DNA from: Cytophagia bacterium CHB2
Lineage (GTDB): Bacteria > Zhuqueibacterota > Zhuqueibacteria > Zhuqueibacterales > Zhuqueibacteraceae
Direction: 5' to 3'
Assembly: GCA_030263535.1 (NCBI GenBank)
Contig: SZPB01000017.1
Span: 1 to 34,610, forward strand
DNA: 34,610 nt
Shown: positions 3,267 to 34,610 of the stretch, in pieces
How positions within the stretch are numbered: position 1 is the first letter of the stretch
Layout: each line of letters opens with the position of its first letter
Translations under genes and position numbers: made by a program
The notes under the pieces: generated by a model
What the model was told of the DNA's origin: nothing
The model's database searches: none
Seen by the model: only the letters and a program-made list of their open reading frames with translations

Positions 3267-4049
3267 CTAAAGCCAGGAGAGTTTCTGGGGTTCCCTCACG
3301 GCGCCTTTCTCAGAGATGACGGCAAGGAAGATTTCTTCAAGTGACAAAGAATCCTTCACGATGCCACCGTTAGTCTTTCTTCTGAGATCATCCATTGTAC
3401 CCTGGAAAAAGATTTTTCCTTTGCTGATTATTGCAATCTGATCGCAGAGTTTTTCAACGGTATTGAGATCATGAGAGCTGAGAAAGACCGTAACCCCTTT
3501 TTCAGCCATAAGGCGCAGATTATCCTTTATTGTCTTTGATGATAGCGGATCAATTCCCTCCAAGGGCTCGTCTAAAATGAGGAGCCTGGGGCGATGGATG
3601 ATTGCTGTTGCCAGCGACACCTTCTTTTTCATACCCGTTGAAAGAGTCTCAATCAAGTCATTTCGCTTTTCATAAAGAACGAAGAATTGCATGAGTTCTT
3701 CAATGCGCTTCTCTGCGACGGTTTTTTCGATGCCGTGCATGGCTGCGGCAAATTCCAAATACTCTTGTGACGTGAGTTTTTCTAAGTATACCGGCTTTTC
3801 TAGAACGAAGCCGACATTTCTTTTGTACTCAAAATCAAAATCATTCACTTTTTCACCAAGAAGAAACACTTCGCCCGCGTCCTTTTGCACGATTCCCGCC
3901 AGGATATTTATAAGGCTCGATTTCCCGGCGCCATTCGGACCGATTAGGCCAAAAACGCACCCCGCGGGAACGGACAAATCCAGATGCTCCAGGGCAACGG
4001 CTTTTTTCTTATAATTTTTTTTTAGCCCTTTGCAAACGATGGCATTCAC
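3267..4049 (-). CDS. ABC transporter ATP-binding protein (putative bacteriocin immunity/export)
   Basis: 260 aa. I start it at a GTG overlapping the upstream permease stop (GTGA, 4-nt overlap), which removes 36 poorly conserved residues. It has a complete nucleotide-binding domain: Walker A GPNGAGKS at 37-44, signature LSTGMKKK from 136, Walker B LLILDEP at 156-162, and switch His 193 in SSHD. This is the ABC-2 type (CcmA/BcrA-like) domain, cytoplasmic and paired with two separate membrane subunits encoded just upstream. As the last gene of the precursor-peptide operon it most likely powers immunity or removal of the mature peptide. That role is inferred from context. A lantibiotic-immunity or antibiotic-efflux family member would look the same. 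Confidence 0.88.
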   Translation of the reverse strand: MNAIVCKGLKKNYKKKAVALEHLDLSVPAGCVFGLIGPNGAGKSSLINILAGIVQKDAGEVFLLGEKVNDFDFEYKRNVGFVLEKPVYLEKLTSQEYLEFAAAMHGIEKTVAEKRIEELMQFFVLYEKRNDLIETLSTGMKKKVSLATAIIHRPRLLILDEPLEGIDPLSSKTIKDNLRLMAEKGVTVFLSSHDLNTVEKLCDQIAIISKGKIFFQGTMDDLRRKTNGGIVKDSLSLEEIFLAVISEKGAVREPQKLSWL

Positions 4050-4720
4050 GATAGATCTCCCAAAATGACGAACTTGTGTTTCTGCAACGCTTTTGCAGTT
4101 GATGGGATCATGACAAAGTACCACGCCACCACAGAACCCATTAAGAATATCACGCACAAGAGGTAGCTTTGAAATATCACTTTCAGGATCAGATAGGGAA
4201 GTGAAGCGAACATCATCATGCCGAATTGCAGAAGCAGGGAGATGATGAGATTGTCCGTAGAATCCTGAAGAGAGAATCGAACAGCAATGAAGTTTCCGAG
4301 CCAGAAAAAGAGAAAGATGGAGGTCAGGAGTAATACCAGTGCATCAAGAAAGTCAAGCACGTTGGATTCATGTCGTGCTGCCGCAACAAGTGCCGTTAAA
4401 CAATACAATCCCAGAACGAGAATGAAGATGCTTAGGTTTTTTGCGAATATGATCCTTTTGAGATCTGTCGGGAACAGAAAATAGCAGGTTTTTTCGTTTT
4501 TGCCTTCCCAAAAAATATTGGCAAACAAAAATCCTGTGACCAGATAGTTGAAGGTAACAATGCCAATAAACACATTCATGCCCGCAAACAGTGATTTTGC
4601 AAGCGAAGACAATAGCAAAGCGTTACATGCGACACTTATGATGATGAAACTCCAAGTTAATTGGCGATGAAGCATGATCATGCTTATCTTTACGAGAGTC
4701 TGTGTTCGCGGTTTTGTCAT
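4046..4720 (-). CDS. ABC-2 type permease subunit
   Basis: 224 aa from the ATG at 4720 (MTKPRTQ); an earlier ATG at 4792 would overlap the upstream gene by 50 nt. About six hydrophobic segments are visible: LTWSFIIISVACNALLL, MNVFIGIVTFNYLVTGFLF, LSIFILVLGLYCLTALV, ALVLLLTSIFLFFWLG, IISLLLQFGMMMFASLPYLIL and LLCVIFLMGSVVAWYFVMI. The soluble loop between spans 2 and 3 (FWEGKNEKTCYFLFPTDLKR) resembles the cytosolic coupling segment of ABC-2 permeases. It overlaps the ATPase gene by 4 nt. It is poorly conserved at sequence level, and the function rests on its place between another permease and the ATPase. Confidence 0.75.
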   Translation of the reverse strand: MTKPRTQTLVKISMIMLHRQLTWSFIIISVACNALLLSSLAKSLFAGMNVFIGIVTFNYLVTGFLFANIFWEGKNEKTCYFLFPTDLKRIIFAKNLSIFILVLGLYCLTALVAAARHESNVLDFLDALVLLLTSIFLFFWLGNFIAVRFSLQDSTDNLIISLLLQFGMMMFASLPYLILKVIFQSYLLCVIFLMGSVVAWYFVMIPSTAKALQKHKFVILGDLS

Positions 4721-4742
4721 AGATTTTCCGCTGCATCCGTTT

Positions 4743-5507
4743 TCATTCAGAGTAATTATTCGGGTATGGATTCCCATTTCTTCTTGTTGCAAGAAATGCC
4801 AATACTATAATTCCGCTCACTAGGAACAGACCCAAGAACAGGCTATTGGTGAGCGCTCCTTGTATGTTGCCGGTTTTGAGTGCGTAAAGGGCGTTGCCCG
4901 CGTGACTGATGAGCGGTAATGCACCGAATATATCCAATCTCTTTGTGATGAGTACCACGTTAAAGAAGATAATTCCAAAATAAAATATTATTAGGGCATT
5001 GCTTTTTGTTCTTCTGAAGAAATTTCCACAAAGACTATAAGTGATATGAAACCAAACGATCATTGTCAATAGAAAGGCAAGAATGAGTACTACACCAAGC
5101 AGCGCCTTTAACGGAGACAGTTCTTTCAGAAAAAAAACAGCGAAAAGGAGAGCAATCATCAAATAAAGCAATGATTTGTGGTCCACGATGGCAATCATGA
5201 GGTTGAATTTTAATTTTTGAAGATATCCGATTGGGAAGATGCTCAAATGAAATGGCTCTATCAGGGTTCTGGTTTGAAATCTCAATAGTGTGAACAGGAC
5301 ATCGACCGCAGATATAAACAGTATGCCGGCACTAAACGCAATTTGTGTTTGTTTCACGCTTTCAAAGTCAAGCATCTCTGTAAAAAGCAATAACGTCCAA
5401 AATGATATAGGGGAGAGTGAAGCTAAAGCCACAAGGAGCAAATAAATATGCCCCCTCTTTCTTGATCGTTTTATTAGGATAAAATTAATTCGAAATAAAT
5501 CAAACAT
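4743..5507 (-). CDS. ABC-2 type permease subunit
   Basis: 254 aa from the ATG at 5507 (MFDLFRINF), preferred because it begins with the short amphipathic helix usual for such permeases; an ATG at 5558 would add 17 residues. Six hydrophobic spans follow a basic KRSRKRGH segment. The loop FQTRTLIEPFHLSIFPIGYLQKLK resembles the coupling loop of its neighbour (FPTDLKR), suggesting the two permeases form a heterodimer. It lies 22 nt upstream of the second permease and downstream of the precursor gene, separated from it by a strong hairpin. Likely role: membrane channel of the immunity or efflux transporter. Confidence 0.72.
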   Translation of the reverse strand: MFDLFRINFILIKRSRKRGHIYLLLVALASLSPISFWTLLLFTEMLDFESVKQTQIAFSAGILFISAVDVLFTLLRFQTRTLIEPFHLSIFPIGYLQKLKFNLMIAIVDHKSLLYLMIALLFAVFFLKELSPLKALLGVVLILAFLLTMIVWFHITYSLCGNFFRRTKSNALIIFYFGIIFFNVVLITKRLDIFGALPLISHAGNALYALKTGNIQGALTNSLFLGLFLVSGIIVLAFLATRRNGNPYPNNYSE

Positions 5508-5570
5508 TATATTTGATACTGATTTTCCCATTGGGCACCATGCACAATATGTGCTCACGATAAAGTGAAC

Positions 5571-5605
5571 TCATCGAGCAGGAATCCGAAATTCCTGCTC
5601 GATGA
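5571..5605 (-). terminator. 15-bp perfect hairpin between precursor and immunity genes
   Basis: Arms 5571-5585 and 5591-5605 pair perfectly (15 bp) around a CCGAA loop. On the minus strand it follows the precursor stop at 5644 and is followed by GTTCACTTTA, which is not a full T-run. It is therefore more likely a leaky terminator or an mRNA-protecting stem than a full stop. Such a stem after the structural peptide gene raises peptide mRNA over downstream genes in known bacteriocin operons. Confidence 0.7.
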
Positions 5606-5643
5606 TCAAACAGTTTACGGTATTTTATTTGACTTGCAGCAAC

Positions 5644-5850
5644 CTAACCGCACATGTCAGAGCAACTGCAGATAATTCCTGCCGCGCCCGAAAACAATCC
5701 TAGTTGGCCTATAATAAATACCCCAATTCCTCCCGTTGCGGCAGCGGCGCCGGCAATAGCGATTCCGTACCCAGCCAAGGCTAGTGCACACTCAAACGGC
5801 AACTGCCCGCCATTGAGCTCTTGCATTGCTTCCAACGAAAGCTCTTTCAT
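5644..5850 (-). CDS. Double-glycine leader bacteriocin-like precursor peptide, four core cysteines
   Basis: 68 aa from the ATG at 5850, which has GGAGG 5 nt upstream (5856-5860). The leader MKELSLEAMQELNGG is 15 residues with the acidic/hydrophobic pattern and Gly-Gly cleavage site recognised by C39 peptidases. The 53-residue core starts QLPFEC and is rich in Gly/Ala/Ile with a hydrophobic centre (YGIAIAGAAAATGGIGVFII). It ends with a Cys cluster IICSCSDMCG. Cysteines lie at core positions 6, 46, 48 and 52, so two disulfides are possible. No Ser/Thr-rich lanthionine pattern and no lanthionine synthetase, radical-SAM or YcaO gene is nearby. I infer an unmodified or disulfide-bonded membrane-active peptide exported by the C39 ABC transporter of the same operon. 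I do not recognise a named family. Confidence 0.85.
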   Translation of the reverse strand: MKELSLEAMQELNGGQLPFECALALAGYGIAIAGAAAATGGIGVFIIGQLGLFSGAAGIICSCSDMCG

Positions 5851-5902
5851 AATGACCTCCAATGTCAATAGATTTGAAGACTATTGCTCCGCGGCGAGAG
5901 CG

Positions 5903-6442
5903 TCAATTATGGCCGCTAACCCGGCGTTCCGGACCACCGGTTTTATTCAATTCCTTCAAGATTTTGTCTAACTTGGCTTCGCCTCGTATTTTCGAAAGCA
6001 ATCTTCCGAATTGATCAAAAATGAACACATAGGGTACCGCACGACTCCCGAAGCGATTCTCAAAATGATTCGGATCAACTTCACCCCACATCACATTTTG
6101 CGCGATTTCCAACTCCGGCCACATATTTGTTTTGTCCGAGCGCAGAAAATTCTTCTCGGTGGTGAGGATGATCATCTTTACATCATTGAAACTATGGAGA
6201 TTTTCATTGAACAAATTCAGTTGATACTTACAGTATTTGCAAAGGCTGTGAAAGTGAACGACGATCGTGCTGTAGCTGCTATCCGGCGCAAGGTGTTTAA
6301 CCCCCTTGGAGGAATGATACTCCAAGGCTGGCATGTGTGCTCCGAGTGGCAGTACCGCTGGTCGGAAAGCTGCCTGGAGCAGCCAGATGATGATGATCAA
6401 AAAGCAAACCAGAAAGATTCCCGCCGACGCTTTTTTATACAT
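5903..6442 (-). CDS. Membrane-anchored TlpA-like thiol-disulfide protein
   Basis: 179 aa. An N-terminal membrane anchor or signal (FLVCFLIIIIWLLQAAF, about residues 10-26) precedes an extracytoplasmic thioredoxin fold. The redox motif is CKYC (C68, C71) in HFHSLCKYCKYQLN, and the cis-Pro loop is AVPYVFIFD with P137. The CXXC sits after the usual first beta strand, as in TlpA/ResA. The start overlaps the stop of the MauE-like gene by 8 nt. Next to a four-Cys precursor, the simplest role is forming or reshuffling disulfides in the exported peptide. Cytochrome c maturation is unlikely because no ccm genes are near. Confidence 0.88.
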   Translation of the reverse strand: MYKKASAGIFLVCFLIIIIWLLQAAFRPAVLPLGAHMPALEYHSSKGVKHLAPDSSYSTIVVHFHSLCKYCKYQLNLFNENLHSFNDVKMIILTTEKNFLRSDKTNMWPELEIAQNVMWGEVDPNHFENRFGSRAVPYVFIFDQFGRLLSKIRGEAKLDKILKELNKTGGPERRVSGHN

Positions 6443-6839
6443 GTTTCATACCCCGAGAATCGTATTTCAACAGGCAGGTCATGACAATGAGAAGTAGATT
6501 TTTTAAAACACTTATCAGCGGATTTACTTCCAGAAATGTACCGAAGCAGCCACAATTCTCCGCCTCCATGAATGCCATGGCCACACTTGTTCCCAGAAAG
6601 GCAATCAAAGTTATCAGTATGACGCTGTAAACGGTATTTGCACTACGCTGATTGAAAACCAAAAGGCAAACAAATGTCAATTCAATCAGAATTGTCGTGG
6701 CAACCAGATAGTGAACGACTTCATTATTTATATTGGTGAAACTCGCAAAATACACGACAGTATTCTCAAAATCAAAAATCTTTGCGAGAGCAGAAATTCC
6801 AAAGATCGCACTGATCGTGCCTTTGAAAAAATTAGTCAT
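6435..6839 (-). CDS. MauE/DoxX-like redox-associated membrane protein
   Basis: 134 aa, four hydrophobic spans. The diagnostic loop ENCGCFGTFLEVN carries a Cys-Gly-Cys pair of the MauE/methylamine-utilisation type (PF07291), where the membrane thiols pass electrons to a periplasmic thioredoxin-like partner. The neighbouring TlpA-like gene is exactly such a partner. It starts at an ATG overlapping the upstream gene by 4 nt, so the genes are co-translated. Likely role: quinone-linked oxidation or reduction of the TlpA-like protein during peptide maturation. The family call is firm; the substrate is inferred. Confidence 0.85.
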   Translation of the reverse strand: MTNFFKGTISAIFGISALAKIFDFENTVVYFASFTNINNEVVHYLVATTILIELTFVCLLVFNQRSANTVYSVILITLIAFLGTSVAMAFMEAENCGCFGTFLEVNPLISVLKNLLLIVMTCLLKYDSRGMKHV

Positions 6840-7510
6840 CCGCTAACTCCGTTCAAATAAGCTGTGATTCCCCACTGCAACAGCAGGAGCAGCATCCACA
6901 TACAGAATACCAGGAAAGCAGCTAGCTCTTTCTTTAGTTTTTCTGTGCGCACCAAACCTTTGTAAATGATAAAACACCAGGCCGCCTCAAATAGGCTGAA
7001 CTTGTTCAAAACTGTGAATGCGGCCTGGGGATATTGTGACGCATCGAGAATGCTTGCAATGGAAAGAGGTACAACGCTCAAGCTGGCGAGAGAGATTTCC
7101 GATGCGGGTAGATTGTTCAACCAGAAAATTTTGACGAAGGCAGAGGCGGTCATTGGCAAAGAAGCGCATGTGACGATGCGAAAAAGCCGGCGAAATGGAA
7201 TGTCAATCATCATGAGAATAAGCGGCATTTGAATGAGCAAGACAAGAAACGTGACGTGTATCCATGTAAGGATCGGTTGAAAAATATATCCCCAAAGGGT
7301 CAGTTTTCTCATGAAATTGAAGTACTCATCGATCCGCTCGGCCTCCAGTTGTTCAGACAGCAGATTCTGGTAAACATCACGCGTCAGGACGTGTTCATTG
7401 TAAAACCAGCCTGCCAGCAGATTCGCGAGAAGGATAATTATGAACAGTTGCCAGGTTTTGATATAGACATCCTTGTTCAAGGCCAATGACGGCGCTATAC
7501 TATAGGGCAT
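6836..7510 (-). CDS. Multi-TM protein, Yip1-like, of unknown role in the peptide operon
   Basis: 224 aa from the ATG at 7510, which overlaps the exporter gene's end by 11 nt and has GGAAGG upstream. The first span (WQLFIIILLANLLAGWF) is followed by a ~50-residue soluble loop (EHVLTRDVYQ, EAERIDEYFNFMRK). At least four more spans follow, including LTWIHVTFLVLLIQMPLILMM and VFCMWMLLLLLQWGITAYL. The layout recalls Yip1/YIP-type membrane proteins. No cysteines sit in a redox pattern, so it does not look like a disulfide enzyme. It could be an immunity factor or exporter accessory. Function not established. Confidence 0.7.
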   Translation of the reverse strand: MPYSIAPSLALNKDVYIKTWQLFIIILLANLLAGWFYNEHVLTRDVYQNLLSEQLEAERIDEYFNFMRKLTLWGYIFQPILTWIHVTFLVLLIQMPLILMMIDIPFRRLFRIVTCASLPMTASAFVKIFWLNNLPASEISLASLSVVPLSIASILDASQYPQAAFTVLNKFSLFEAAWCFIIYKGLVRTEKLKKELAAFLVFCMWMLLLLLQWGITAYLNGVSG

Positions 7511-9704
7511 GCGAACTTCCTTCCAACTCGAACTCGTGATTTTGCTGAATCTCCCAAAGTTTTCTGAAATGGCCGCTTTTATGCAGCAATTCGGTGGGAG
7601 TGCCACTCTGTATTACTGTGCCGTCACTCAAAAGAAAGGTAAAATCAGTTCTGAAGATGGTTCTGAGGTTATGTGAGATCACCAAGACGGCGTTGCGTTT
7701 GGCATACCTTCGCAATATCTCAAATACGAAGCTCTCGATTTCCGCATCGATTGCACTTATACCCTCATCCAGAATCAAAATTTCGGGTTCATCATAAAGC
7801 GCGCGCAATAGTCCCAAGAGCTGAAGTTCTCCGCCGGACAACTGACGGCCCTCTTCGCCAATGGGGGTAAACATACCATGCCCAAATCTTGAGATAAAGG
7901 CCGTAAGGCCATAACTATCTAATCGCTTTGCCATGTCCTCGATATTCGAAATATGCCGCCCGAGCAATATGTTTTCTGCAATTGTACCGTTGAACACCTT
8001 CACGGATTGAGGAACGACGGCAATATTTTTTCTACAGCTTTGTAAATCAAATTCATTTATTGGTAAGGAATCAATCAAGATTTTTCCGGACGAAAGCAGA
8101 TATTTTCTTTGCAAGATTTTGACAAGGGTGCTTTTGCCTGCTCCGCTCACTCCCCAAAGTCCAGTAATCCTCCCCTGTTGAATCGAAAGATTGAGATTAT
8201 TGAATAGGCATTTCCCTTTGGGCCAGGTGAACTGTCCATCAATTATTTCCAAGGATTTCGCCATCTTGAAAGGCAGATGTCCCACATTGCTTTCCTTCGG
8301 AACAAGTAATAGATCCATGAGACGTCTGGCAGCCATGGATGCACCCTGCAGAGATATGTTCGCTTCCACGAGACGATTCACTGCCGGTACCATGTTTGCC
8401 AGTATCGCATATGCAGCCATCATCTGCCCGAGTAACAGAGACGCATTCATGACTGAAATAGCGCCGAACGTGAGCGTACCCATGATCAAAACGCCCGCGG
8501 ACAGCTCAGCTTGTAACGAAACTTTTGCCTGCGTCAGGCCAAGTCTTGCTACCTGGTTCTGAAAATTCTCATAGAGGAGTGTATTCGACTTCGCGAAGAA
8601 TAAAGATGCGTTAAAACCCAGTATTTCGCTTATTCCGCCCAGACTGTCAAAATAAAAGGATTCTACCCGTGCATAAGCTTTCATTGTTTCATAGTGCTTT
8701 TGTTTTATTTTGCGTGCGGTTAAAAACAAAACAACTGCATAAAGGGGCAATGTCGCCATGGCGATCCATGCGATTGGCCTCGCAAGCATGAACAAAAAGA
8801 GAAAGGAACCCAGAACAATCAAGCCGTCAATGACGGTCACTCCTATAACTGTTAGAATAACTTGTTGGATTTTAATACTGTCATTTATTCGCGCTGTGAT
8901 GTCCCCAATCTTGTGCGTGTCGAAGAAGCTAAGCGGCAATTGGAATAAATGGCTCAGAAAGTCTCTATTGACGTTGGTATTGACGCGTTTATTGAGCTCA
9001 ACCAGAAACATTTGCTTCAGGTATCCTGCCAGGGCTCTCAACAGTTGCAGCGCCAGCAGAAAAAAACCTGTAATGATGATTTTGAAATAATCTCGCTCCG
9101 GAATAAGTTTGTCGATCAGCGATTGAATAAATACTGCCACAAGAAGTCCTAGCGCAGTATAGATGAGACCAAGAAAAATGGATTGATAAAGCCAAGATTC
9201 CTCTGTTCGAAAATAAGTGAGAATCCAGCTTAACCAGGTTGATGATTTACCGTGGTACAGTTGCTTCGGAGCCAACAGGATTACTGCCTTCTCTCTCCAT
9301 ATGGCGAGAAATTCATTTCGGGATAGTTTATATACTCCTTTGCCCGGGTCCCCAACAATCACACCTTTGGCATTGATCTTAAAAACTACTATAAAATGTT
9401 GGAGGCGATCATCCATGATAACATGAGCTATGCATGGCATGTCTTCTTTAATTAAGTCTTCGTATTCGCCAGTTGCCCCCTTTGCTTCAAAACCAAGTGC
9501 CCGAGCTGCTTGAACCAAGCCAAGCATCGTGCTTCCACTTGAATCCGTTTGGCTAAGCGACCGAACATGAACAAGTGTTGTATTTCCTCTCCAAAATCTC
9601 AAAACGGTCAAGAGCGCAGCTGGCCCGCAGTCGCCCTGTTCATATTGCCGAATAAGAGCATATCGTGCCTTGACTAGGTTTTTGAAATGCGAAAGGGATT
9701 GCAT
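7500..9704 (-). CDS. C39 peptidase-containing ABC exporter (PCAT)
   Basis: 734 aa from the ATG at 9704; a TTG at 9761 would add 19 residues and neither start has a clear ribosome site. Domain 1 (about 10-145) is a C39 bacteriocin-processing peptidase with Q20 (oxyanion hole), catalytic C26 in QGDCGPAAL, H103 in QHFIVVF and D119 in GDPGKG. Domain 2 (about 170-455) has six membrane spans. Domain 3 is an ATPase with Walker A GVSGAGKST at 518-526, signature LSGGE at 622-626, Walker B ILILDE at 642-647 and switch H678. All catalytic residues are present, so it should cleave after the Gly-Gly of the precursor at 5644-5850 and export the core. It is the first gene of the operon, with overlapping or short junctions downstream. 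Confidence 0.95.
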   Translation of the reverse strand: MQSLSHFKNLVKARYALIRQYEQGDCGPAALLTVLRFWRGNTTLVHVRSLSQTDSSGSTMLGLVQAARALGFEAKGATGEYEDLIKEDMPCIAHVIMDDRLQHFIVVFKINAKGVIVGDPGKGVYKLSRNEFLAIWREKAVILLAPKQLYHGKSSTWLSWILTYFRTEESWLYQSIFLGLIYTALGLLVAVFIQSLIDKLIPERDYFKIIITGFFLLALQLLRALAGYLKQMFLVELNKRVNTNVNRDFLSHLFQLPLSFFDTHKIGDITARINDSIKIQQVILTVIGVTVIDGLIVLGSFLFLFMLARPIAWIAMATLPLYAVVLFLTARKIKQKHYETMKAYARVESFYFDSLGGISEILGFNASLFFAKSNTLLYENFQNQVARLGLTQAKVSLQAELSAGVLIMGTLTFGAISVMNASLLLGQMMAAYAILANMVPAVNRLVEANISLQGASMAARRLMDLLLVPKESNVGHLPFKMAKSLEIIDGQFTWPKGKCLFNNLNLSIQQGRITGLWGVSGAGKSTLVKILQRKYLLSSGKILIDSLPINEFDLQSCRKNIAVVPQSVKVFNGTIAENILLGRHISNIEDMAKRLDSYGLTAFISRFGHGMFTPIGEEGRQLSGGELQLLGLLRALYDEPEILILDEGISAIDAEIESFVFEILRRYAKRNAVLVISHNLRTIFRTDFTFLLSDGTVIQSGTPTELLHKSGHFRKLWEIQQNHEFELEGSSHAL

Positions 9705-9906
9705 AAACGGTCTTTGTTTTAAATGCGCATAACTATCTAAATTTTCTTGATTTCTGGTCAAATATGTCGCTTGCTTATTTGTTGGTCCTGTTTAGAATAT
9801 GTCTTTTCCCAATGTGGATGTGTTGACGTATTTCGAAATTAGATTTTTGCGGTATGCACTGTAACAAAGCGACAGCGTAGCAGATGCGCAAATTTACTTT
9901 AGACCT

Positions 9907-11054: not shown

Positions 11055-12791
11055 TCAGCGCGCCAGAATCAGTCTTCGAGTCAACATCTCCTTCATGCCG
11101 TTATCAGTCGTGAATAGCACATGGAGAAAGTAGATCCCGTTGCTTGCCGCTTGGCCTGTTTCAGTGGTACCGTGCCATCGTAGTTGATGTGAGCCGGTGG
11201 GCAAGCTCCCTTGATACAAACTCAAAATCTCCTGACCCTGCAGGTTGTAGATTGCTGCGGATACGCGACTGGCCACGTTCAGATGTAGTGACATTTGGGT
11301 TAGATACTGAAAAGGATTGGGGTAGTTTGAATCGATGAAGAATTCTTGCGGTGGTCTGGCATCGTTATTCTGCGCCGCAATTGGTGCAGGCGCTTCCGGT
11401 GCAATACCGGGCTTTTGAATGTAGGTCAGCGAGAATTCATCGATTTCATTGTTCATCTCTTCGCCGCGGAGAAAGAACCCCACGTACCAGTTTTCAGATT
11501 TTGGAAAATGTCTGGCGGGATCTTCGGCGGTGGCAGAATAGTCGCCGTTGATGTAGTAATCAAAATAATTGCCGTCATGTTCTTGCCGGATTTTAATGGT
11601 GACCACATCGCCCGCGCCGGGATCAGAAGCACCGTGCCAACGCCCGAGATCGCGTCCACCGACATATTCCCCGTTGTTGATCGTCCATAACCAAACCTGG
11701 CCGTAACGATGCCAGAGCCAATAACCGTTGGCATGCGGACTATCTTCGTCCACCATGAGCGCCAGCGCGCCCTCGCGCACACCGAGGGCCGTGACGTTTT
11801 TGCCCCAACGATACGAAACCTCAATGATCTCGCGGCCGTCGCCGTTGCTCACGGGATTGTAAACGGTGAGATAGCGCCAGGATTTCCAGGCTTCGGGCGT
11901 GTGATCAAGTTCGCCCTCGGTGATTTGCCAGAATTCCGGTTCACGCGTCCAATCCGGGCCAAGATCAGCGCGATTGAAGTCATCACGCACGGTCAACGTA
12001 TCGGGCGCATGGCGCGCACTCGCAAAAGTTGCATCCGTTGAATAAACGGCATTGCCGGCGGCATCGCTTGCGATTACACGATAATGATAACCGGTATTCG
12101 GAGATAACCCAGTCAGTTGTATGGCATGCTCGATTGCCAATGCTGAAGTGGGCGGCGAAAAATTTCCATACGTGAGCGTGGGGCCGTATTGAACCTGTGT
12201 GCGCGCCGGCTCATCTGTTTCACAACGAATGGTAACGGTGGTTGATGAAATGCTGCTGAGGCGAACATTGCGGAGCTGCGGCGCAACCGTATCAAGCAAA
12301 GCCGGGCTTTCTCGTTGGCCCACGGGTGGCGTGGTGGGATGCGAGCCGTCGACATAGGATTCATAGCCTAAATGCCAGCCGGTAATCGTTCCCAAAGGCT
12401 GGGGAAAAACAAGCAGCGTGTCATACGGCACAAGGCGATCGGCATTTGGCTCGGCCTTTTTACCGCCGATGGTTCCTTGAAAAATGTACTGCGTTTGCCC
12501 GTGCAATTTGACAAAAGGATTGCGCACATAATCATCGCTTGCCTTGCCTTCGCCCAAATCGACTCGTGCACGGACTTGCAATTGCTGCCCTTCCAACTCC
12601 GTAACGGTTATCGAGATCAGCGCCTCGTCAAAATGATGCGCATTGCTATCTGCGTGTGATTGCCAGGTGAATGTGCCAAGAAGCGGGGAAGCTCCGGGCT
12701 GTGTGGTTTGCGCGAATGCGAGCCCGGACAGCACCAGCGATATGCCGGTGATCAGGTGGGGGGCGAAATAGCAAAGGCGAAAGAGTCGCAT
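11055..12791 (-). CDS. Secreted multidomain protein with FN3 and T9SS sorting domain
   Basis: 578 aa. There is a signal peptide (residues 1-27, ending GLAFA). Then come an uncharacterised N-terminal domain, a fibronectin type III-like domain at about 175-260 (VRLSSISSTTVTIRCETDEPARTQV split over two strands, LSPNTGYHYRVIA), and a LamG/jelly-roll-like domain at about 270-455 (DDFNRADLGPDWT, EVSYRWGKN, YWLWHRYG, NNEIDEFSLTY). The C-terminal Por secretion sorting domain runs from about 492 (DSNYPNPFQ, IYNLQGQEILSLY, GQAASNGIYFLHV). Such proteins are exported by the type IX system and anchored to or released from the cell surface. No catalytic residues are evident; carbohydrate or ligand binding is possible. 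It is divergent from the sigma-54 activator at 13403. Its C-terminal third is duplicated at 2622-3203. Confidence 0.9.
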   Translation of the reverse strand: MRLFRLCYFAPHLITGISLVLSGLAFAQTTQPGASPLLGTFTWQSHADSNAHHFDEALISITVTELEGQQLQVRARVDLGEGKASDDYVRNPFVKLHGQTQYIFQGTIGGKKAEPNADRLVPYDTLLVFPQPLGTITGWHLGYESYVDGSHPTTPPVGQRESPALLDTVAPQLRNVRLSSISSTTVTIRCETDEPARTQVQYGPTLTYGNFSPPTSALAIEHAIQLTGLSPNTGYHYRVIASDAAGNAVYSTDATFASARHAPDTLTVRDDFNRADLGPDWTREPEFWQITEGELDHTPEAWKSWRYLTVYNPVSNGDGREIIEVSYRWGKNVTALGVREGALALMVDEDSPHANGYWLWHRYGQVWLWTINNGEYVGGRDLGRWHGASDPGAGDVVTIKIRQEHDGNYFDYYINGDYSATAEDPARHFPKSENWYVGFFLRGEEMNNEIDEFSLTYIQKPGIAPEAPAPIAAQNNDARPPQEFFIDSNYPNPFQYLTQMSLHLNVASRVSAAIYNLQGQEILSLYQGSLPTGSHQLRWHGTTETGQAASNGIYFLHVLFTTDNGMKEMLTRRLILAR

Positions 12792-18998: not shown

Positions 18999-21900
18999 TC
19001 ACTCAAGTTCTTGTAACAATTCCAACAAATATGAATAAACCGCTCCCCGCTGCATATAGGCATGGGCAAACTGATTCCTATAATTTCTTAAACATCCATA
19101 GCAAGTGGTTTCAGATGCACAACCACAGTAACCATTTACGCGCTCCGCTGCGGCTTCGATACAAGCACGAAGCATCTCTTTAAATTCTAATCGTGCCACC
19201 AAGCCAGCACCACCTGGGACATTGTCGTATAAGATGATAGACGGAAAGCTAGCTTGCATATCGTAAGCATTGACGGTTACATTGAGTTCATTAGAGGGTA
19301 CTTCGAGCACCTTCGCCGCTCCTTCTAAAATGGCATAAGCAAGAGTGAAAGCGAACCATTGAGGTTCAATATCCGAATTATGAGCTTTCCAAAATATGAT
19401 TTTCAGAACATCAGTCACAAAATCATGTCCCAACGAAAGAAATCTTTCCGGTCGGCAACGGCATTTTCTGCCTAAGAAATCTTCGTGTCCGTTCTCGATT
19501 TCTGCTCTCGTCATTTCACGAAACCCCGCGCCACACTTTGGACAAACGTAAAATCCTTGCCCTTTGTAACCCTCGCATAAAACCACCATTTCGCCTGGCG
19601 ATGTTTTGGTCAACTCGATGGCGCCATATTTTATAGTTTGCTGGCTAGTGTTTTTGAAACCCACGAAATAAGGTCGAGTCGAGAAGATTCGTTCAGTTTT
19701 GCGCCGCGGCTTGTCCGGACGTTTGTTTTTCGTCAGAAAACCGAATTGCGGCACGACGTAAAGCCTCGTGGTCATACCACGGCAACATTTGGTAAAGCTG
19801 GGATTCTGGCCAGTTTGCCAACGATCAAATTGGTTATGTTTGGCGCATTTGGCGTAATGCCATCGCGCCCATTCTTTTTCTGCAACTTTTTTCAAAGCAT
19901 AGGATTCCCATTCGAATTTATTGGCCACCAACTTACTCGTCGGTGCGAATTCAGCAATAGCGATGGAAAGATCGCGCTGCAGTATGACGGTTTCACTTCC
20001 GGTATTGTTGCTAACAGAATGGGTATCGAGCTCAACCACATCCACAGGGAAACCGTATTTGGGAATTACAACGGCGCGTGAAAGAAAACTCAAAACATCT
20101 TCCTTCGCAATTGTATTGGCACGTTTCTGCGCCCATTCCGCGCTACGAAATTGATTTGATTGTTTTGATTCGTCTTGAAATTGTTTGATGATCTTGAAAT
20201 CTGTTGCTACTCTCTCTTCAGCTCCCTTCAAAGCAGCGGAAATCAAGTGCTGAATCCATGTGCCGTCCTCCAGTCCTAAAAGGCGGCTTTGCTCGTCGTC
20301 TTTAATGATCGCTCTTAAAGAGGAAAGAATCTTGCCTTGGTCTTTTTGAAGATATTCCTCGAAATCTTTCACTGCCGATGGATTTTGTAAATCGGCAAAG
20401 AATGCTTCGACGTTTTTGAATCGATTCGGAAAAGCTCTGAGGAAAAAGGATAGCGCAGCCGCGGTCAAGTGTCTTATCGTGATTTTGGGGTTGTTTTTCG
20501 CAATCACTGGTGGACTCACTTTACCGGATATCATACGATCGGGATGGTCGAAATGATAAAGATCATGGGCATTTCGGCGGCAGTATGTTACTGCAAACCC
20601 GATGTTGCCTACACGTCGTCCAGCACGGCCAACGCGTTGGGCATAATTGAAAGATTCGGGCGGAACATTGCGCAGAAAGATTGTGTCAAGATCGCCCAAA
20701 TCAACTCCCAGCTCAAAGGTGGTCGAGCAGCTCAACACCTGAATTTTGTTGTTACGAAAATCGCGCTGATATTCACGCGCGGTCACTTTTGCCAATTGTG
20801 CGGTATGTTCTTCGACACGTAGAATCTCTGGCTGTAATTCGATATACAAATTGCGATAATGATTGGATTCCAGTTCGGACATTCTAATCGCGACAAGCTG
20901 CCCATGGCAATTGCTACGGTTGCAGATGTTTTTTACTGCCACATGCTGCAATCTGCCACAGACGAGACAGCGATAGATCGTGTCCTCGTTCGTCAGCAAT
21001 TGAATGCGCCACCAATCAGGATTCAAACGTTTTGCGTCGGTGATCTCATGAAAAATGGCTTCATGTGAAGATCGGGCCTTGTTATCTGTTTCTGAGAATG
21101 ATTGCCACACAGCGCGCAAGGCCTCACCCGCTTTTATTCGCGCAGCAGATTTTTCCATTCCGGCATGCTCGAAGATTTTAGCCATCCAGCGCGCTCTTCT
21201 CCCTCTGAGGCCATCCCAGCTACGGACGAAATGTTGGCTTCCTGGTTCGCCAATACGAACTTTCATTTGTGGCGATTGCAGCCCGAGATCTTTCCAATTT
21301 AAATTGACGAGCGGTGGCAGGTTTAGGTTTACAGCTTTATCAAGCCGAACGAAATTCAGTAAAGTTTCCAGTAGAGTGAACTTTTCCGAGTCGGATAAAT
21401 GCCATGGCAAATCATTCAAAAAACTTTCAACCTTAAACCAAGAGGGCCATTTCATGACATAACGAATTAGGCCAACACCTTCCAAAGATTGATTCGTTTC
21501 TTCAGCTAAAAATTCTGAGTAGATTTGTTTCCATATTTTATTTGTTCGCTCGATGTCGCCTGTAGTTTCCCTGAATAAGCGCTGTTCTTCGTATCTATTA
21601 GACAAAACACTTGCAAGCTCGTTAAAAGTGACTGAACCAGCAGAATCAAGCTTCCTGAGTGCATGCAAGATCAAGACACGTGAAAGGAGGCCTTGATAAC
21701 TATCGTCAAGATACCAGGCAAAAAAAGCAGCCTGTTGTCGGCTATCGGCAAATGCCAAAACTTTCTTTTTTTCTAATGGCAAATTTTGCACGAGAGCTGT
21801 GGCAATGACAGCGTTGGGGCCATCTGAGCCATGCACGATTTCGCGTACGGGGTCCGCAGCTTGATAACCGCAGGCTGCGCACTTCGAAATCTGATCTGGG

Positions 21901-23657
21901 TGTTTTTTGGAAGCTTCTTGCTGTTCAACAAATATGATTGTCGTATGGTTACAAACTGGGCGCGTGGGATGTCGCGAAATTGCGCCACAAGCCAAACAAA
22001 GCTGATGCAGATTGTTCCGGTTGAATTCATCTTCGTCGTTTTGCTCGACAAGTGAAATATCAACAGGACGGAAAAAATTGGCGCCAAAATCGATATCTCC
22101 AGGATCACGTATGGCTTCGCTCAACCTACTTTTGCTTACTTTGCCAACAAGATAATGCTGTCCACATTCCCGACAAATTGCGATTTCGAAAAAGGCGTGC
22201 CCTTGCTGCACACTCGTCCGATCCAGTAAAATTTTTTGCGTGACGGGTTGATCCTTTGTGCTCGCAAGCGATAGATATGCACCCTCCAATGAGCACAGGA
22301 AAAAATGGAAGCGGGCCGTCAACAGAGGCGAGCCATCAACTGGATTCTGCGCAGCAGCCAATAGACGAATGAGCCGAACTAAAGCTTCAACTTGTTTCTG
22401 TTCCTCGAGTTCTGGGAAAATTTTTGACGCGACATCCTCAACCTTTATTGCTTTCCCCGTCACTTGTTCACGTAGCTTAGTTGTGCGAGAATCGTTGTGA
22501 AGAATAATGTAAATAGCCTCTTCCCACTTACGAGCCTCGGCCAAATCGATCCCATGCTGTGAAGCAAGCGACGATAATTTTACCTTCAGTTCTGTAACCG
22601 AATTTGGCCGTGCACTTTCCAACAGTTTATAGTCTTCGAGTAAAAGCGTATATCGACTTTCCCCTGTTAATTCTTCAAATTTTCCTCTAATGATATGTTC
22701 GGGCTCAAATGTTTCCCCAAACAAGTCCTGCGCAAATTGTGCAACACGGCCAACATCTTTGCTATCACTTGCCAAAGTTGCACTAGTCGCAATACATTGA
22801 AATCCATCTCGACGTCCTCCTTCACTCAAACGTTGCTTCAGGCGGCGGAGCAACATACCCATCTCCATGCCTTTCGTGCCACGGTACTGATGTGCTTCAT
22901 CCAACACGATGAATTTCCACCATTGGGCGTTGCCGTTATCAAAAAGTGGACTATCGTGAGGACGAAGTAACATGAATTCTAGCATCGAATAATTCGTCAA
23001 CAAGATATGAGGTGGGGTGGCGCGCATTTGTTCGCGAAATACCAATTCACCTGGCAATCTATTATCCCAGGCTTCGCGGGCATTTCGATACTGATCATTG
23101 CGGTCTTCGGGAGTATCACCGACATATTGGCCAAAAGTAAATCTAAATCTCGAATGATACGCTTCCAGTTTTCTACAAATTTCTCCTAAACGTTCACGTT
23201 GGTCAAACGCCAAAGCATTCATCGGATAAAGAATGAGCGCGCGTATGCCGTTTCCTAACTGGCCAGACACAAATTCTTTATAAAGATGAAGCAAAATAGG
23301 CAATAAGAAGGCCTCGGTTTTTCCGCTGCCTGTCCCCGTAGCAATAACGACATTCTTGCCTAGCGCCGTAAAACGGATTGAATTTTCTTGATGGCAATAC
23401 AACTGGCGTTCGCCCTCCACTGCCTGCATGAAGCCTTGTTCCGGCTCAACCCCGAGAGTTTCTGTGAATAACTCGGTTGTATTCTTTGCTCTCTTGAAAA
23501 TCGGCGTAGCTTCTAAGTAAGGACCATTGGAAAGATGGCCAGCATCAAGCGTTTCCTCAAATGATCTGCGCAAGCCGTCATCTTTGAAATAGAACATGGT
23601 CTTGAGATATTGCAGATATTTCTCTTCAACTTTTTCAGCAAGAATATAAGGATTCAT
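18999..23657 (-). CDS. Large DEAH-box helicase with DUF1998-type C-terminus
   Basis: 1552 aa, superfamily 2. Q90 (Q motif), Walker A ATGTGSGKT at 106-114, TNYSMLEFML, DEAH at 253-256, SAT at 292-294. The second RecA half has LAFADSRQQAAFFA (634-647), STTFELGVDLGDLDTIFLRN and QRVGRAGRR at 1007-1015. Between and within the halves are Cys pairs suggesting zinc sites: C495/C498, C554/C557, C593/C596, C897/C900, C912/C917. The C-terminus shows DUF1998 (LYDNVPGGAGLV; CGCASETTCYGCLRNYRNQ). This is the architecture of MrfA/YprA and of the DruE and DrmA/DrmB helicases of Druantia and DISARM. It follows the zinc-finger gene by 13 nt. It probably translocates on DNA in defence or repair; exact role unknown. 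Confidence 0.93.
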   Translation of the reverse strand: MNPYILAEKVEEKYLQYLKTMFYFKDDGLRRSFEETLDAGHLSNGPYLEATPIFKRAKNTTELFTETLGVEPEQGFMQAVEGERQLYCHQENSIRFTALGKNVVIATGTGSGKTEAFLLPILLHLYKEFVSGQLGNGIRALILYPMNALAFDQRERLGEICRKLEAYHSRFRFTFGQYVGDTPEDRNDQYRNAREAWDNRLPGELVFREQMRATPPHILLTNYSMLEFMLLRPHDSPLFDNGNAQWWKFIVLDEAHQYRGTKGMEMGMLLRRLKQRLSEGGRRDGFQCIATSATLASDSKDVGRVAQFAQDLFGETFEPEHIIRGKFEELTGESRYTLLLEDYKLLESARPNSVTELKVKLSSLASQHGIDLAEARKWEEAIYIILHNDSRTTKLREQVTGKAIKVEDVASKIFPELEEQKQVEALVRLIRLLAAAQNPVDGSPLLTARFHFFLCSLEGAYLSLASTKDQPVTQKILLDRTSVQQGHAFFEIAICRECGQHYLVGKVSKSRLSEAIRDPGDIDFGANFFRPVDISLVEQNDEDEFNRNNLHQLCLACGAISRHPTRPVCNHTTIIFVEQQEASKKHPDQISKCAACGYQAADPVREIVHGSDGPNAVIATALVQNLPLEKKKVLAFADSRQQAAFFAWYLDDSYQGLLSRVLILHALRKLDSAGSVTFNELASVLSNRYEEQRLFRETTGDIERTNKIWKQIYSEFLAEETNQSLEGVGLIRYVMKWPSWFKVESFLNDLPWHLSDSEKFTLLETLLNFVRLDKAVNLNLPPLVNLNWKDLGLQSPQMKVRIGEPGSQHFVRSWDGLRGRRARWMAKIFEHAGMEKSAARIKAGEALRAVWQSFSETDNKARSSHEAIFHEITDAKRLNPDWWRIQLLTNEDTIYRCLVCGRLQHVAVKNICNRSNCHGQLVAIRMSELESNHYRNLYIELQPEILRVEEHTAQLAKVTAREYQRDFRNNKIQVLSCSTTFELGVDLGDLDTIFLRNVPPESFNYAQRVGRAGRRVGNIGFAVTYCRRNAHDLYHFDHPDRMISGKVSPPVIAKNNPKITIRHLTAAALSFFLRAFPNRFKNVEAFFADLQNPSAVKDFEEYLQKDQGKILSSLRAIIKDDEQSRLLGLEDGTWIQHLISAALKGAEERVATDFKIIKQFQDESKQSNQFRSAEWAQKRANTIAKEDVLSFLSRAVVIPKYGFPVDVVELDTHSVSNNTGSETVILQRDLSIAIAEFAPTSKLVANKFEWESYALKKVAEKEWARWHYAKCAKHNQFDRWQTGQNPSFTKCCRGMTTRLYVVPQFGFLTKNKRPDKPRRKTERIFSTRPYFVGFKNTSQQTIKYGAIELTKTSPGEMVVLCEGYKGQGFYVCPKCGAGFREMTRAEIENGHEDFLGRKCRCRPERFLSLGHDFVTDVLKIIFWKAHNSDIEPQWFAFTLAYAILEGAAKVLEVPSNELNVTVNAYDMQASFPSIILYDNVPGGAGLVARLEFKEMLRACIEAAAERVNGYCGCASETTCYGCLRNYRNQFAHAYMQRGAVYSYLLELLQELE

Positions 23658-23670
23658 TTTCGACCCGAGA

Positions 23671-25710
23671 CTATTTTAAGGTGAAGTCATTCCATTCAAA
23701 AATTTCGTTTCGATGTGGTTGCAACAAATGGGCAAAGATGTTTTCTTCCAAAATACTTTCAAACTTCTTGTAAAAGTTATGGCAGTAGAGACATTCGACC
23801 CAGATCGGGAGATTGGATATGTGAACTGAGCGAATTTCTTCCGTATCTTCAACGACGCGAAAACGTATTTGAGAGTAGCCGCCGTGGGCTTGTGTTCGTG
23901 CATCCACGCATTCATGTTGGATATGATAGATGATCGTGCTGGTGGGATTGTCTGCAAATGAAGTGGCATTGACGAAATGGTGAAGATTATACCCACACTG
24001 ATAAATTTTTTTAGGGAATTCATGCCCGTATAAGCCTCTTTTTTGTGCTTCAGTATAAGGCAAAACCCTGTAGCCATGTGTAGAGTGGGTCTTTCTGAAA
24101 TGAGATTCCGCTTCGTGTGAATCTGGCGACGCAAATGAGCAACCAGAGATTTTGCAGTGCCAAGCCTTCGTTTTGATTCTAAGCGCAGCAACCTTGTGTT
24201 CGCGCTTCGAATCCCTAATCCATAAATAGAAGATTGCACCATTTTCACGGAGCTCTTCAGCATCACAAAATTCTCGTAGGGCAATTGGGAATTTTCCTTT
24301 TTTGCGACGAAGTTTTCGAGGTTTGAAACCAGCATGAACTGAATTGACATGGGTTGTCTTTGGTATATGTACCCAAAGTACTTCTGCTGAAGTAGCTGCA
24401 AAGCGTGATTCTTCAATTTCAATCGGTTTGTTCTGCCAATCAATTCTTGTTTCGTCGGCGTGTTTATTCGTTATCCCCCACCGAAGTCGATGAGGTTCAA
24501 AATGATGTAAATGATGTAGAGGAATTGAATGCTGATCAAAGCTAAACCAATTGCATGTTATTTCAACTCCCCTAGCAGTTTTAAATCGTGGAAAATCTGT
24601 TTGATTTTGATCGACATGGATCAAATAACCGTGCCACTGATCAATTGTAAGGAATTCTTGTTCTTGAAATACAAAACAAGAGGAGGTGAGATTCAAGCAT
24701 TCCCAATTTGCGGGAACGACTAAAAGATTGATTCCAGCAGTTACACGTTTCGCCAAACGCCCCCGATTCAGGCCTTCATCTGATAACTTAAACCAAATAA
24801 TCTTTCGCGAAATGTTAAACGTCGAACACTCGTCGCCATTTTCATGGAAAAATCGCCACGAAATGCCATATCGCTCGCAAAGGGCTGGTGGCAGGATGGC
24901 ATTCGTGCGATTAAAGATTTTCAGTGTAAATAGTGGAGCAAAATCTCGCCAACTTTGAATCGCCGAAGCAATCTTGATATTGACAATTTGGATTCTTGTC
25001 TTAATCTTGGTGCTACTGAGCTTCTCAAATTTGATTAAAGTGGCTGATAACTCCGAAGCCTCAAGTATCCAACAGTGCGGCATTTGCAAAACAGATTCGA
25101 TCTGGACGGTTGTGCTCTCGTGAAGATGGCTTTCAAAGGATCGCGCGACACCCCCGTTCACAACGATTTCATTTGAATTGATCTGATTGACTTGTGCGCT
25201 GATAATTCCATTAGTCCGATCCACGCAGGAAAACACGGCTGGTGTGACAAATGTGGAGGTGAATTTGTGGCATATTATGGTTAACCCAAGACCTTTGAAC
25301 TCATCAGGCGACAAACGCTGGACTGCCGCGTGCTTCAGTTTGAATCTGTCGGCTCGAAAAATATTGATTCTCCATGGATTTACATAGCTAAAAATAGAAG
25401 GAGTGCTAAGTTCGTGACCGGCTTTGACAGTGGCACAATTAATTGACTCAATTGGGATGGCATCAATCTGTGGGGACAAAAGATGACAACTCGATAAAAA
25501 AACGGACAAGCTCTCAAAGGTAACGGCCTTCATATTCAGCCGTCTAATGGTGGGTGTTATGGCAAGTTCGCTTTCCACGGGTGCAATCTTTTGCTGCTGT
25601 TCGCCAGTGGGCCAAGTGACTTTCAAACAACGCGCACCGATCCTGGGTACAAGCACGCGATGAACTTCCGGCTTTGCAAAAGGAAAGAGCCTATGCATCA
25701 ACTCCTTCAT
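23671..25710 (-). CDS. Zinc-finger protein of unknown family in helicase operon
   Basis: 679 aa, not recognised as a named family. The N-terminal ~500 residues are beta-rich with no catalytic motif I can defend. From about 510 come zinc-finger-like elements. One is a clean C2H2 finger (C519-x4-C524-x12-H537-x4-H542). The second is irregular (C572, H596, H599, C601). The third is C640-x2-C643-x17-H661-x4-H666. A basic patch RKLRRKKGK at about 465 precedes them. A DNA- or RNA-binding role is therefore plausible. It starts at the ATG that overlaps the upstream gene's stop by 4 nt, and the helicase follows 13 nt later, so the three genes are one transcription unit. It could supply target recognition for the helicase (inference). 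Confidence 0.75.
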   Translation of the reverse strand: MKELMHRLFPFAKPEVHRVLVPRIGARCLKVTWPTGEQQQKIAPVESELAITPTIRRLNMKAVTFESLSVFLSSCHLLSPQIDAIPIESINCATVKAGHELSTPSIFSYVNPWRINIFRADRFKLKHAAVQRLSPDEFKGLGLTIICHKFTSTFVTPAVFSCVDRTNGIISAQVNQINSNEIVVNGGVARSFESHLHESTTVQIESVLQMPHCWILEASELSATLIKFEKLSSTKIKTRIQIVNIKIASAIQSWRDFAPLFTLKIFNRTNAILPPALCERYGISWRFFHENGDECSTFNISRKIIWFKLSDEGLNRGRLAKRVTAGINLLVVPANWECLNLTSSCFVFQEQEFLTIDQWHGYLIHVDQNQTDFPRFKTARGVEITCNWFSFDQHSIPLHHLHHFEPHRLRWGITNKHADETRIDWQNKPIEIEESRFAATSAEVLWVHIPKTTHVNSVHAGFKPRKLRRKKGKFPIALREFCDAEELRENGAIFYLWIRDSKREHKVAALRIKTKAWHCKISGCSFASPDSHEAESHFRKTHSTHGYRVLPYTEAQKRGLYGHEFPKKIYQCGYNLHHFVNATSFADNPTSTIIYHIQHECVDARTQAHGGYSQIRFRVVEDTEEIRSVHISNLPIWVECLYCHNFYKKFESILEENIFAHLLQPHRNEIFEWNDFTLK

Positions 25711-33548: not shown

Positions 33549-34433
33549 ATGCGGCAAAATCAAGCAAATCCTTATCAACAACCGGTTGAAGAAGTATTGA
33601 CCGCGTTCGACACGGATGCGCGGCGCGGCTTGAGCAAAGAGGAAGCGCGGGCGCGGCTCGAAACATACGGCAAAAACGAGCTGACGGCAGAGAAGCCGGT
33701 GCCAGCGTGGAGGAAATTCCTCGCACAGTTTAAAGACGTGCTTGTCATCCTGCTGCTCATCGCGACAGTGATTTCGACCGTGTTGTGGTTGTACGAGCGC
33801 GAATCGGCGCTGCCTTATGAAGCCATGGCGATCTTCGCCGTCGTGCTGCTCAACGCCATCATGGGTTACATTCAGCAATCACGCGCGGAAGATGCGGTGG
33901 CGGCGTTGCGCCAAATGTCGGCGGCGCATGCCAACGTCATCCGCGACGGCGAGCGGCAGAGTATTCCGGCAACCGAGCTTGTGCCGGGCGATATCATCCT
34001 CATTGAAGAGGGCGATACGATTCCGGCGGACGGCCGGTTGATTCAAGAAACCGCGCTGCAAACCGGCGAAGCCGCGCTGACCGGTGAAAGCTTGCCGGTG
34101 TCGAAAGATACGCTGCCGATTGCGCAAGAAGTCGGACTCGGCGACCGCGACAATATGGTCTTCAGCGGCACCGCCGCCACTTACGGCCGCGGACGCGCGG
34201 TGGTGGTGGCAACCGGAATGCACACCCAAATGGGGCGCATTGCCGGGATGCTGAAGCAAGCTCCGGAAGAAACCACGCCGCTGCAAAAGGAACTCGATCG
34301 CGTCGGCAAACTGCTCGGCATCATCGTCGTTGTCATCGCCGTCGTGATGATTGCAACGATAATCCTCGTTGAAGACGTGCGCGGCTTCGCTGGAATTTTC
34401 GACGTGCTCATCCTCGGCGTCGCGCTCGCGGTC
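33549..34433 (+). CDS. Cation-transporting P-type ATPase, N-terminal part (broken by chimeric join)
   Basis: About 295 codons, running open to the window end without a stop. The cation-ATPase N-terminal domain comes first ([40 protein letters not shown]). Membrane spans 1-2 follow, then the actuator domain ([28 protein letters not shown]) with the phosphatase motif TGES. Spans 3-4 start at [16 protein letters not shown] and LILGVALAV, where a Ca2+-type P2A ATPase would continue AAVPEGLP. Instead the reading diverges at about 34430. The phosphorylation (DKTGT) and nucleotide-binding domains are absent. This is the PMCA/MgtA-like type, probably Ca2+, from the 5' end only. Confidence 0.9.
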
Positions 34434-34610
34434 GGAGTAGGCGAACTCCGGTTCCTGACGCTGCCACTTGAGCTTGTACAGCGGAGGCTGCGCCAAGAAG
34501 ATGTGGCCATGCTCGACCAGCGGTTTCATGAACCGGAACAACAGGGTCAGCAGCAGCGTGGAGATGTGCTGACCGTCGACATCGGCGTCGGCCATCAACA
34601 CGATCTTGTG
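34434..34610 (-). CDS. gyrB: Fragment of DNA gyrase subunit B, probably chimeric
   Basis: Minus strand from the window end: [20 protein letters not shown], then [39 protein letters not shown]. This is the GyrB TOPRIM region (metal motif DADVDG) and the segment after it. The coding DNA is GC-rich, and the [16 protein letters not shown] spelling recalls actinobacterial GyrB. The frame ends in the P-type ATPase sequence near 34416-34435, so the fragment is not a real gene of this locus. Confidence 0.85.

Follow-up and report, generated by a model that had tools for sequence, protein, structure and literature searches.

A C39 exporter, Yip1/YknW-like and thioredoxin gene cassette of candidate phylum KSB1 and its proposed bacteriocin-like peptide

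The nearest kind of system to the one described here is found among class II bacteriocins of Gram-positive hosts whose clusters include a CXXC protein, namely pediocin PA-1 (with PedC), thermophilin 9 (with BlpG) and thermophilin 13, which combine a Gly-Gly precursor, a C39 exporter, the clustered CXXC protein and a separate immunity gene (PMC4919988, PMC10059821). A comparable set was observed in an eight-gene operon that runs from 9761 to 3267 on the minus strand of contig SZPB01000017.1 of Cytophagia bacterium CHB2, a member of candidate phylum KSB1. The whole contig, 34,610 bp long, was analysed and is referred to as the window; its genome is estimated at 100% completeness and 4% contamination. 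Unlike the pediocin and thermophilin clusters, the KSB1 set belongs to a diderm host, carries a TlpA-like anchored thioredoxin and has unrelated core sequences, and neither its Yip1-like core gene nor its MauE gene is seen in those reports (PMC4919988, PMC10059821).

Other known systems share some of its parts. Class II microcins of the microcin V type likewise have a Gly-Gly leader, a C39-peptidase ATP-binding cassette (ABC) exporter (PCAT), a diderm producer and, in class IIa, disulfides, but their definition includes a membrane-fusion protein and TolC (PMC9746304), and neither gene was found in any KSB1 cassette. Yip1 proteins occur in clusters for circular and leaderless bacteriocins (PMC8659200, PMC11580447), as a Yip1-like protein does in the KSB1 cassette. 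In contrast to what is predicted for the KSB1 peptides, the maturation of circular and leaderless enterocins involves no Gly-Gly leader and no C39 exporter; in their immunity ABC systems, Mr10EFGH and As-48EFGH, one component (Mr10E in the former) tracks the bacteriocin allele and the others track the species (PMC10598978). In Bacillus, the YknXYZ pump confers protection against SDP, a 42-residue toxin peptide with one disulfide, and YknW modulates how this pump is assembled (PMC4887032); the pump is of the MacAB type, not a C39 exporter, and the similarity of the KSB1 protein to the YknW model is remote. Like the predicted KSB1 product, TMcin is a hydrophobic disulfide peptide, and the CXXC protein of its cluster makes the disulfide needed for activity, but its leader is removed by an S2P-clan protease and a separate ABC transporter exports it, with no C39 domain (PMC13252029).

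The individual parts of the KSB1 locus are thus known, and our literature search found no report of a C39–Yip1–thioredoxin core, of a link between MauE and bacteriocins, or of KSB1 peptides. From the recurrence of the cassette, the cysteines of its peptides and an exchange of alleles between two genomes of one species, we propose, with a probability of roughly two in three, that the product of the operon is a bacteriocin-like peptide of class II, closed by disulfides and served by an exporter partner and an immunity tail.

Recurrence of the cassette and its peptides

From 9761 to 3267, the operon encodes a C39 exporter, a Yip1/YknW-like membrane protein, a MauE-family protein, a TlpA-like thioredoxin, the precursor, two membrane proteins (here PermA and PermB) and an ABC ATPase, and these genes overlap or are separated by short gaps. 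Open reading frames (ORFs) together with Pfam and NCBIfam searches reproduced the content and order given in the original prediction, which had been made from the sequence alone. Its remark that lanthionine, radical-SAM and YcaO enzymes are lacking was upheld by a Pfam search of the operon ORFs. Every ORF of 3267-9761 is accounted for, and none encodes a modifying enzyme of lanthipeptide, sactipeptide or glycocin type (LanM, radical SAM, YcaO, glycosyltransferase).

The searched set comprised 82 genomes of KSB1. A core of C39 exporter, Yip1-like protein, thioredoxin and precursor recurs in about a dozen of them, from independent genera. The conserved unit is this core and not all eight genes: only 4 of 10 cassettes have MauE, and the ABC tail varies and lies outside the core. 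With the Yip1-like protein as query we obtained 11 strong matches including the window (E < 1e-30), every one directly after a C39 exporter gene. Two of these contigs stop after the Yip1-like gene; in all nine others a thioredoxin gene follows, three of them having MauE in between. The thioredoxin profile matched in ten genomes and in none of them outside a C39 cassette setting, the tenth (G004) holding a decayed cassette with a broken exporter and intact MauE and thioredoxin genes. Tails elsewhere consist of an ABC protein with an ABC-2 permease, or of a small membrane protein. A tblastn search of a plasmid collection with the precursor, the Yip1-like protein and PermA gave no match, and neither did viral contigs. 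In a wider genome collection the Yip1-like alignment found six loci, all of them KSB1 or metagenome-assembled genome contigs already among the known matches; since this single-pattern scan is not sensitive, absence outside KSB1 is weak evidence.

The exporter (7503..9761, minus strand; annotated TTG start at 9761, with an ATG at about 9704 also possible) matches the Pfam C39 (E 1.6e-29), ABC transmembrane (7e-29) and ABC ATPase (7e-27) models. Of its solved relatives, which include ComA, PCAT1 is the nearest (E 9e-105), and the catalytic residues Q39, C45, H122 and D138 are invariant across the 12 exporters compared.

The next gene (6839..7510, minus strand), which always adjoins the exporter, had been described simply as a multi-transmembrane protein. 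That description stands and can be refined: the NCBIfam YknW model (NF052650) matches at E 3e-5, with 23.5 bits against a cut-off of 110, and Pfam Yip1 matches two of ten relatives weakly (best 5e-4), so we use the name Yip1/YknW-like and claim no membership. The protein retains 31-42% identity across cassettes with unrelated peptides and always stands beside the exporter, which argues for a part of the machine and against an immunity protein. A fold search with its predicted structure (mean predicted local distance difference test score, pLDDT, of 85) gave nothing above noise, the best hit being the transmembrane part of PCAT1 (Z 6.2, 10 A rmsd). Remote Yip1 proteins in four further genomes (G074, G079, G080, G081) lie beside genes for a TolC-like protein and an ABC ATPase and hence were not counted as this cassette.

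The MauE-family membrane redox protein (6438..6839, minus strand) exceeds the cut-off of its Pfam model (PF07291; E 3.8e-14, 53.5 bits against 27), and the motif NC(G/A)CFGT is retained in all four MauE proteins. A search of the genome for DsbB found none. The thioredoxin (5906..6442, minus strand) has one N-terminal transmembrane segment and a CKYC active site. All Pfam thioredoxin models stay under their cut-offs (Thioredoxin_2, E 0.004); the TlpA-like assignment nevertheless holds, the CXXC and a proline at 137, in the cis-Pro position, being invariant in nine relatives, and a profile search of the PDB returned thioredoxin-family chains (E 7e-9). Seven of ten cassette members have CXHC as their active site, in three of them as CPHC. 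The motif is related to the CPHC of E. coli DsbA, in which the histidine raises the oxidising potential (PMC13252029).

The precursor gene (5644..5850, minus strand) follows a strong GGAGGT Shine-Dalgarno (SD) site and encodes 68 residues, a leader MKELSLEAMQELNGG and a 53-residue core. This core has four cysteines (6, 46, 48, 52) and a computed mass of 4992.8 Da when reduced. The leader scores 9.0 by our Gly-Gly leader rule, and Bacteriocin_IIc matches the precursor weakly (E 0.03). An AlphaFold2 model of the precursor alone is a helical hairpin of low confidence (pLDDT 65.5).

The rule also scores spurious ORFs in other frames, and we accepted only ORFs that follow the thioredoxin or exporter gene in the direction of the operon. 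The original prediction would have been refuted had homologous operons lacked precursor-like peptides; it survived, such peptides being found in eight genomes: a short ORF with a Gly-Gly-type leader follows the thioredoxin gene, in most cases with a clear SD site. The leaders end in GG, apart from AG in two and GS in the second peptide of one genome (G034). Core length is 38–53 residues; the cores are all hydrophobic (grand average of hydropathy, GRAVY, 0.7–1.65) and Gly/Ala-rich, and they are mutually dissimilar except for same-species and same-genus pairs. Their cysteine counts are nonetheless all even, being 4, 4, 2, 4, 4, 2, 2, 2 and 2 in the nine peptides. With about seven independent peptides, a coin toss would give an all-even result with a probability of 1/128, which lends support without being overwhelming. 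The first cysteine lies at most 10 residues from the start of the core and the last at most 11 from its end. In one C39 locus without a thioredoxin gene (G015) the core has a single cysteine and is followed by a CAAX-type (Rce1-like) protease; such proteases are an immunity type of class II bacteriocins.

Further ORFs and gene losses were observed around the precursor position. A regulator-like ORF lies between thioredoxin and precursor in two genomes (G050 and G049), and a 122-residue ORF lies there in G045. In two loci (L021 5108-5452 and 9230-9634; L023 3490-3891), short ORFs that resemble one another lie ahead of the exporter gene and in the interval from thioredoxin to precursor; these may be regulators, and perhaps resemble a DNA-binding part of AraC type. 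In G018 (L018 324-1306) an IS110-like transposase is inserted just past an ATG with an SD site, at the expected place of the precursor. In G046 the precursor is no longer present.

Allelic exchange of peptide core and PermA

The second genome of the species (G075) carries the same locus on two contigs. One (C641) covers the upstream flank together with the 5' portion of the exporter gene; the other (C311) runs from the ATPase through the precursor and ends inside the thioredoxin gene, and an assembly gap lies between them. Comparison with the window revealed a sharply bounded block of about 1.17 kb (~4625–5793) in which, for the greater part, nucleotide identity is about 55–73%, against about 98–100% outside. 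The block reaches from the 5' end of permB through the whole of permA and the gap with the hairpin into the precursor, of which it includes codons 20-69; its edge there, at codon 20, comes immediately behind the Gly-Gly site. Between the two genomes the leader differs in one codon, and the SD site and 90 nt upstream do not differ at all. From codon 20 on, stop included, 39 of 50 codons differ, about half of them silently, which argues for the import of an old divergent allele and against recent mutation. The two cores share 34 of 53 residues, and all four cysteines are retained in both.

Among the tail proteins, PermA (4746..5531, minus strand; a GTG start at 5558 is also possible) is 46% identical between the alleles. 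PermB (4049..4720, minus strand), of which only the 5' end lies within the block, is 92% identical, with differences dense from 4625 upward, and the ATPase (3267..4049, minus strand; start taken as the GTG at 4049) is 99.2% identical. Joint exchange of the peptide core and one neighbouring membrane protein points to peptide-specific immunity or, less likely, to a pheromone receptor. PermA is probably the cognate immunity component of the ABC tail, judging from this pattern, for which Mr10E of the enterocin immunity ABC offers a published parallel (PMC10598978). The original reading of an exported peptide thus goes less far than the exchange, which points to a bacteriocin with cognate immunity.

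The ATPase assignment is secured by Pfam ABC_tran (1.9e-27), and the DrrA and lantibiotic-protection ATPase models match under their cut-offs. As to the two proteins originally called ABC-2 permeases, they occupy the position and have the hydropathy of such proteins, and the label has no other basis. Among the 82 genomes, PermA and PermB were found in no genome beyond the two of the species.

The predicted hairpin after the precursor gene was recovered in the gap before the ABC tail (5571..5605, minus strand), with a 16-bp stem (z -4.26) and no uninterrupted U-tract directly after it. The second genome has a hairpin in the same gap (L076 about 12750-12773); the two differ wholly in sequence, and both keep a strong stem (z -4.3 and -2.4), which suggests a role in stabilising the mRNA or limiting read-through.

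Proposed mechanism and alternative explanations

According to the reading that we prefer, the C39 exporter would cut the precursor after NGG and carry the 53-residue core over the inner membrane into the periplasm, where the anchored thioredoxin would close disulfides, probably two, joining the N-terminal part to the C-terminal cysteine cluster. The core would then form a hydrophobic helical hairpin and may act as a killing peptide. The thioredoxin could be re-oxidised by MauE or by the general system of the cell, with VKOR as electron sink. The Yip1/YknW-like protein would be an obligate partner of the exporter, and the ABC tail would protect the producer, with PermA recognising the peptide.

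Several observations weigh against this proposal. The leader model TIGR01847 scores over its cut-off for two relatives and does not report the window precursor, and the one-cysteine control is a single case. PermA and PermB have no Pfam ABC-2 match, and hhalign of two-sequence profiles to the true ABC-2 permease of a relative was negative. MauE is missing from six of ten cassettes and VKOR is encoded elsewhere in the genome, so MauE is inessential to the cassette type. The window thioredoxin has CKYC, not CXHC, and its direction (oxidase or reductase/isomerase) is read from the motif. The allelic exchange rests on two genomes. Finally, exit through the outer membrane of a diderm cell is unexplained, given that neither the window cassette nor any related one holds a gene for a membrane-fusion protein or TolC; the remainder of the genome was not searched for TolC.

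The peptide might instead be a signal (pheromone) or another non-killing product, with the variable ABC tail importing or sensing it and the exchange representing a switch of pherotype. In its favour, signal peptides are also substrates of C39 exporters, one of the solved relatives is ComA, two relatives have short regulator-like ORFs next to the precursor, and pherotype systems, too, typically swap a specificity block from strain to strain. However, very hydrophobic, Gly/Ala-rich cores of 38-53 residues with paired cysteines are more typical of membrane-active bacteriocins, the operon has neither kinase nor receptor, and related tails include immunity types (a CAAX-type protease and ABC transporters), which together make a signal rather unlikely. 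It is less likely again that the product is a bacteriocin with immunity conferred by the Yip1-like protein, the ABC tail then serving as a second exporter. The role of YknW in assembling the SDP-protecting pump (PMC4887032) and the presence of Yip1 proteins in the clusters of circular and leaderless bacteriocins (PMC8659200, PMC11580447) would fit such an arrangement, but the KSB1 protein is conserved across unrelated peptides and always follows the exporter, as expected of machinery. Its gene also lies well upstream of the exchanged block, which contains PermA, although in the second genome its own sequence falls in the assembly gap.

We consider it the least probable of these alternatives that the thioredoxin and MauE keep cysteines of the peptide or exporter reduced, so that the product would bear free thiols or be modified in a thiol-dependent way. 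TlpA/ResA-type proteins usually act as reductants, and the weak match to Pfam is silent on direction; against this stand the even cysteine numbers throughout, CXHC in seven of ten members, and an operon with no other modifying enzyme.

Returning to the bacteriocin-like peptide, we suggest tentatively, and at odds short of even, that these loci define a new class: hydrophobic Gly-Gly peptides of KSB1 closed end to end by disulfides and made by a C39–Yip1–thioredoxin machine, in which the Yip1-like protein would replace the membrane-fusion protein or escort the peptide, and the peptide and the permease that recognises it would pass between strains as a single recombination block.

Genomic setting and significance

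The operon has a G+C content of about 39–46%, against about 50–55% in the flanking genes. On its opposite side from the upstream flanking gene (11058-12791), a fragment at 2622-3194 matches the last 190 codons of that gene, with 72% protein identity and 87% DNA identity over 246 nt. In sister species (G076 and G077) a single intact copy of the flanking gene stands beside the same cox genes and the operon is absent. The operon thus lies between a gene and its duplicated 3' end, an arrangement also known from some sites of island insertion. An Rfam search gave no match, and promoter and terminator scans were at chance level, the precursor hairpin excepted.

Two further features of the window were noted. 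A 1552-residue DEAD helicase with an MrfA zinc-binding domain, encoded within 18999-25710, has Druantia DruE as its best PADLOC match (E 1e-187), and the adjoining 679-residue protein has no match at all; the two may form a Druantia-like defence locus, the second protein being an unknown partner. At the contig end (about 33879-34610) a P-type ATPase frame overlaps an opposite-strand stretch that reads as a GyrB/topoisomerase fragment, possibly an assembly chimera.

KSB1 bacteria are uncultured, and we found no paper on peptide antagonism among them. In the cassette, Yip1-like proteins are tied to a C39 exporter, and we found no such partnership reported in the literature. The cassette is also compact, and its natural pair of alleles predicts which membrane protein would confer immunity.

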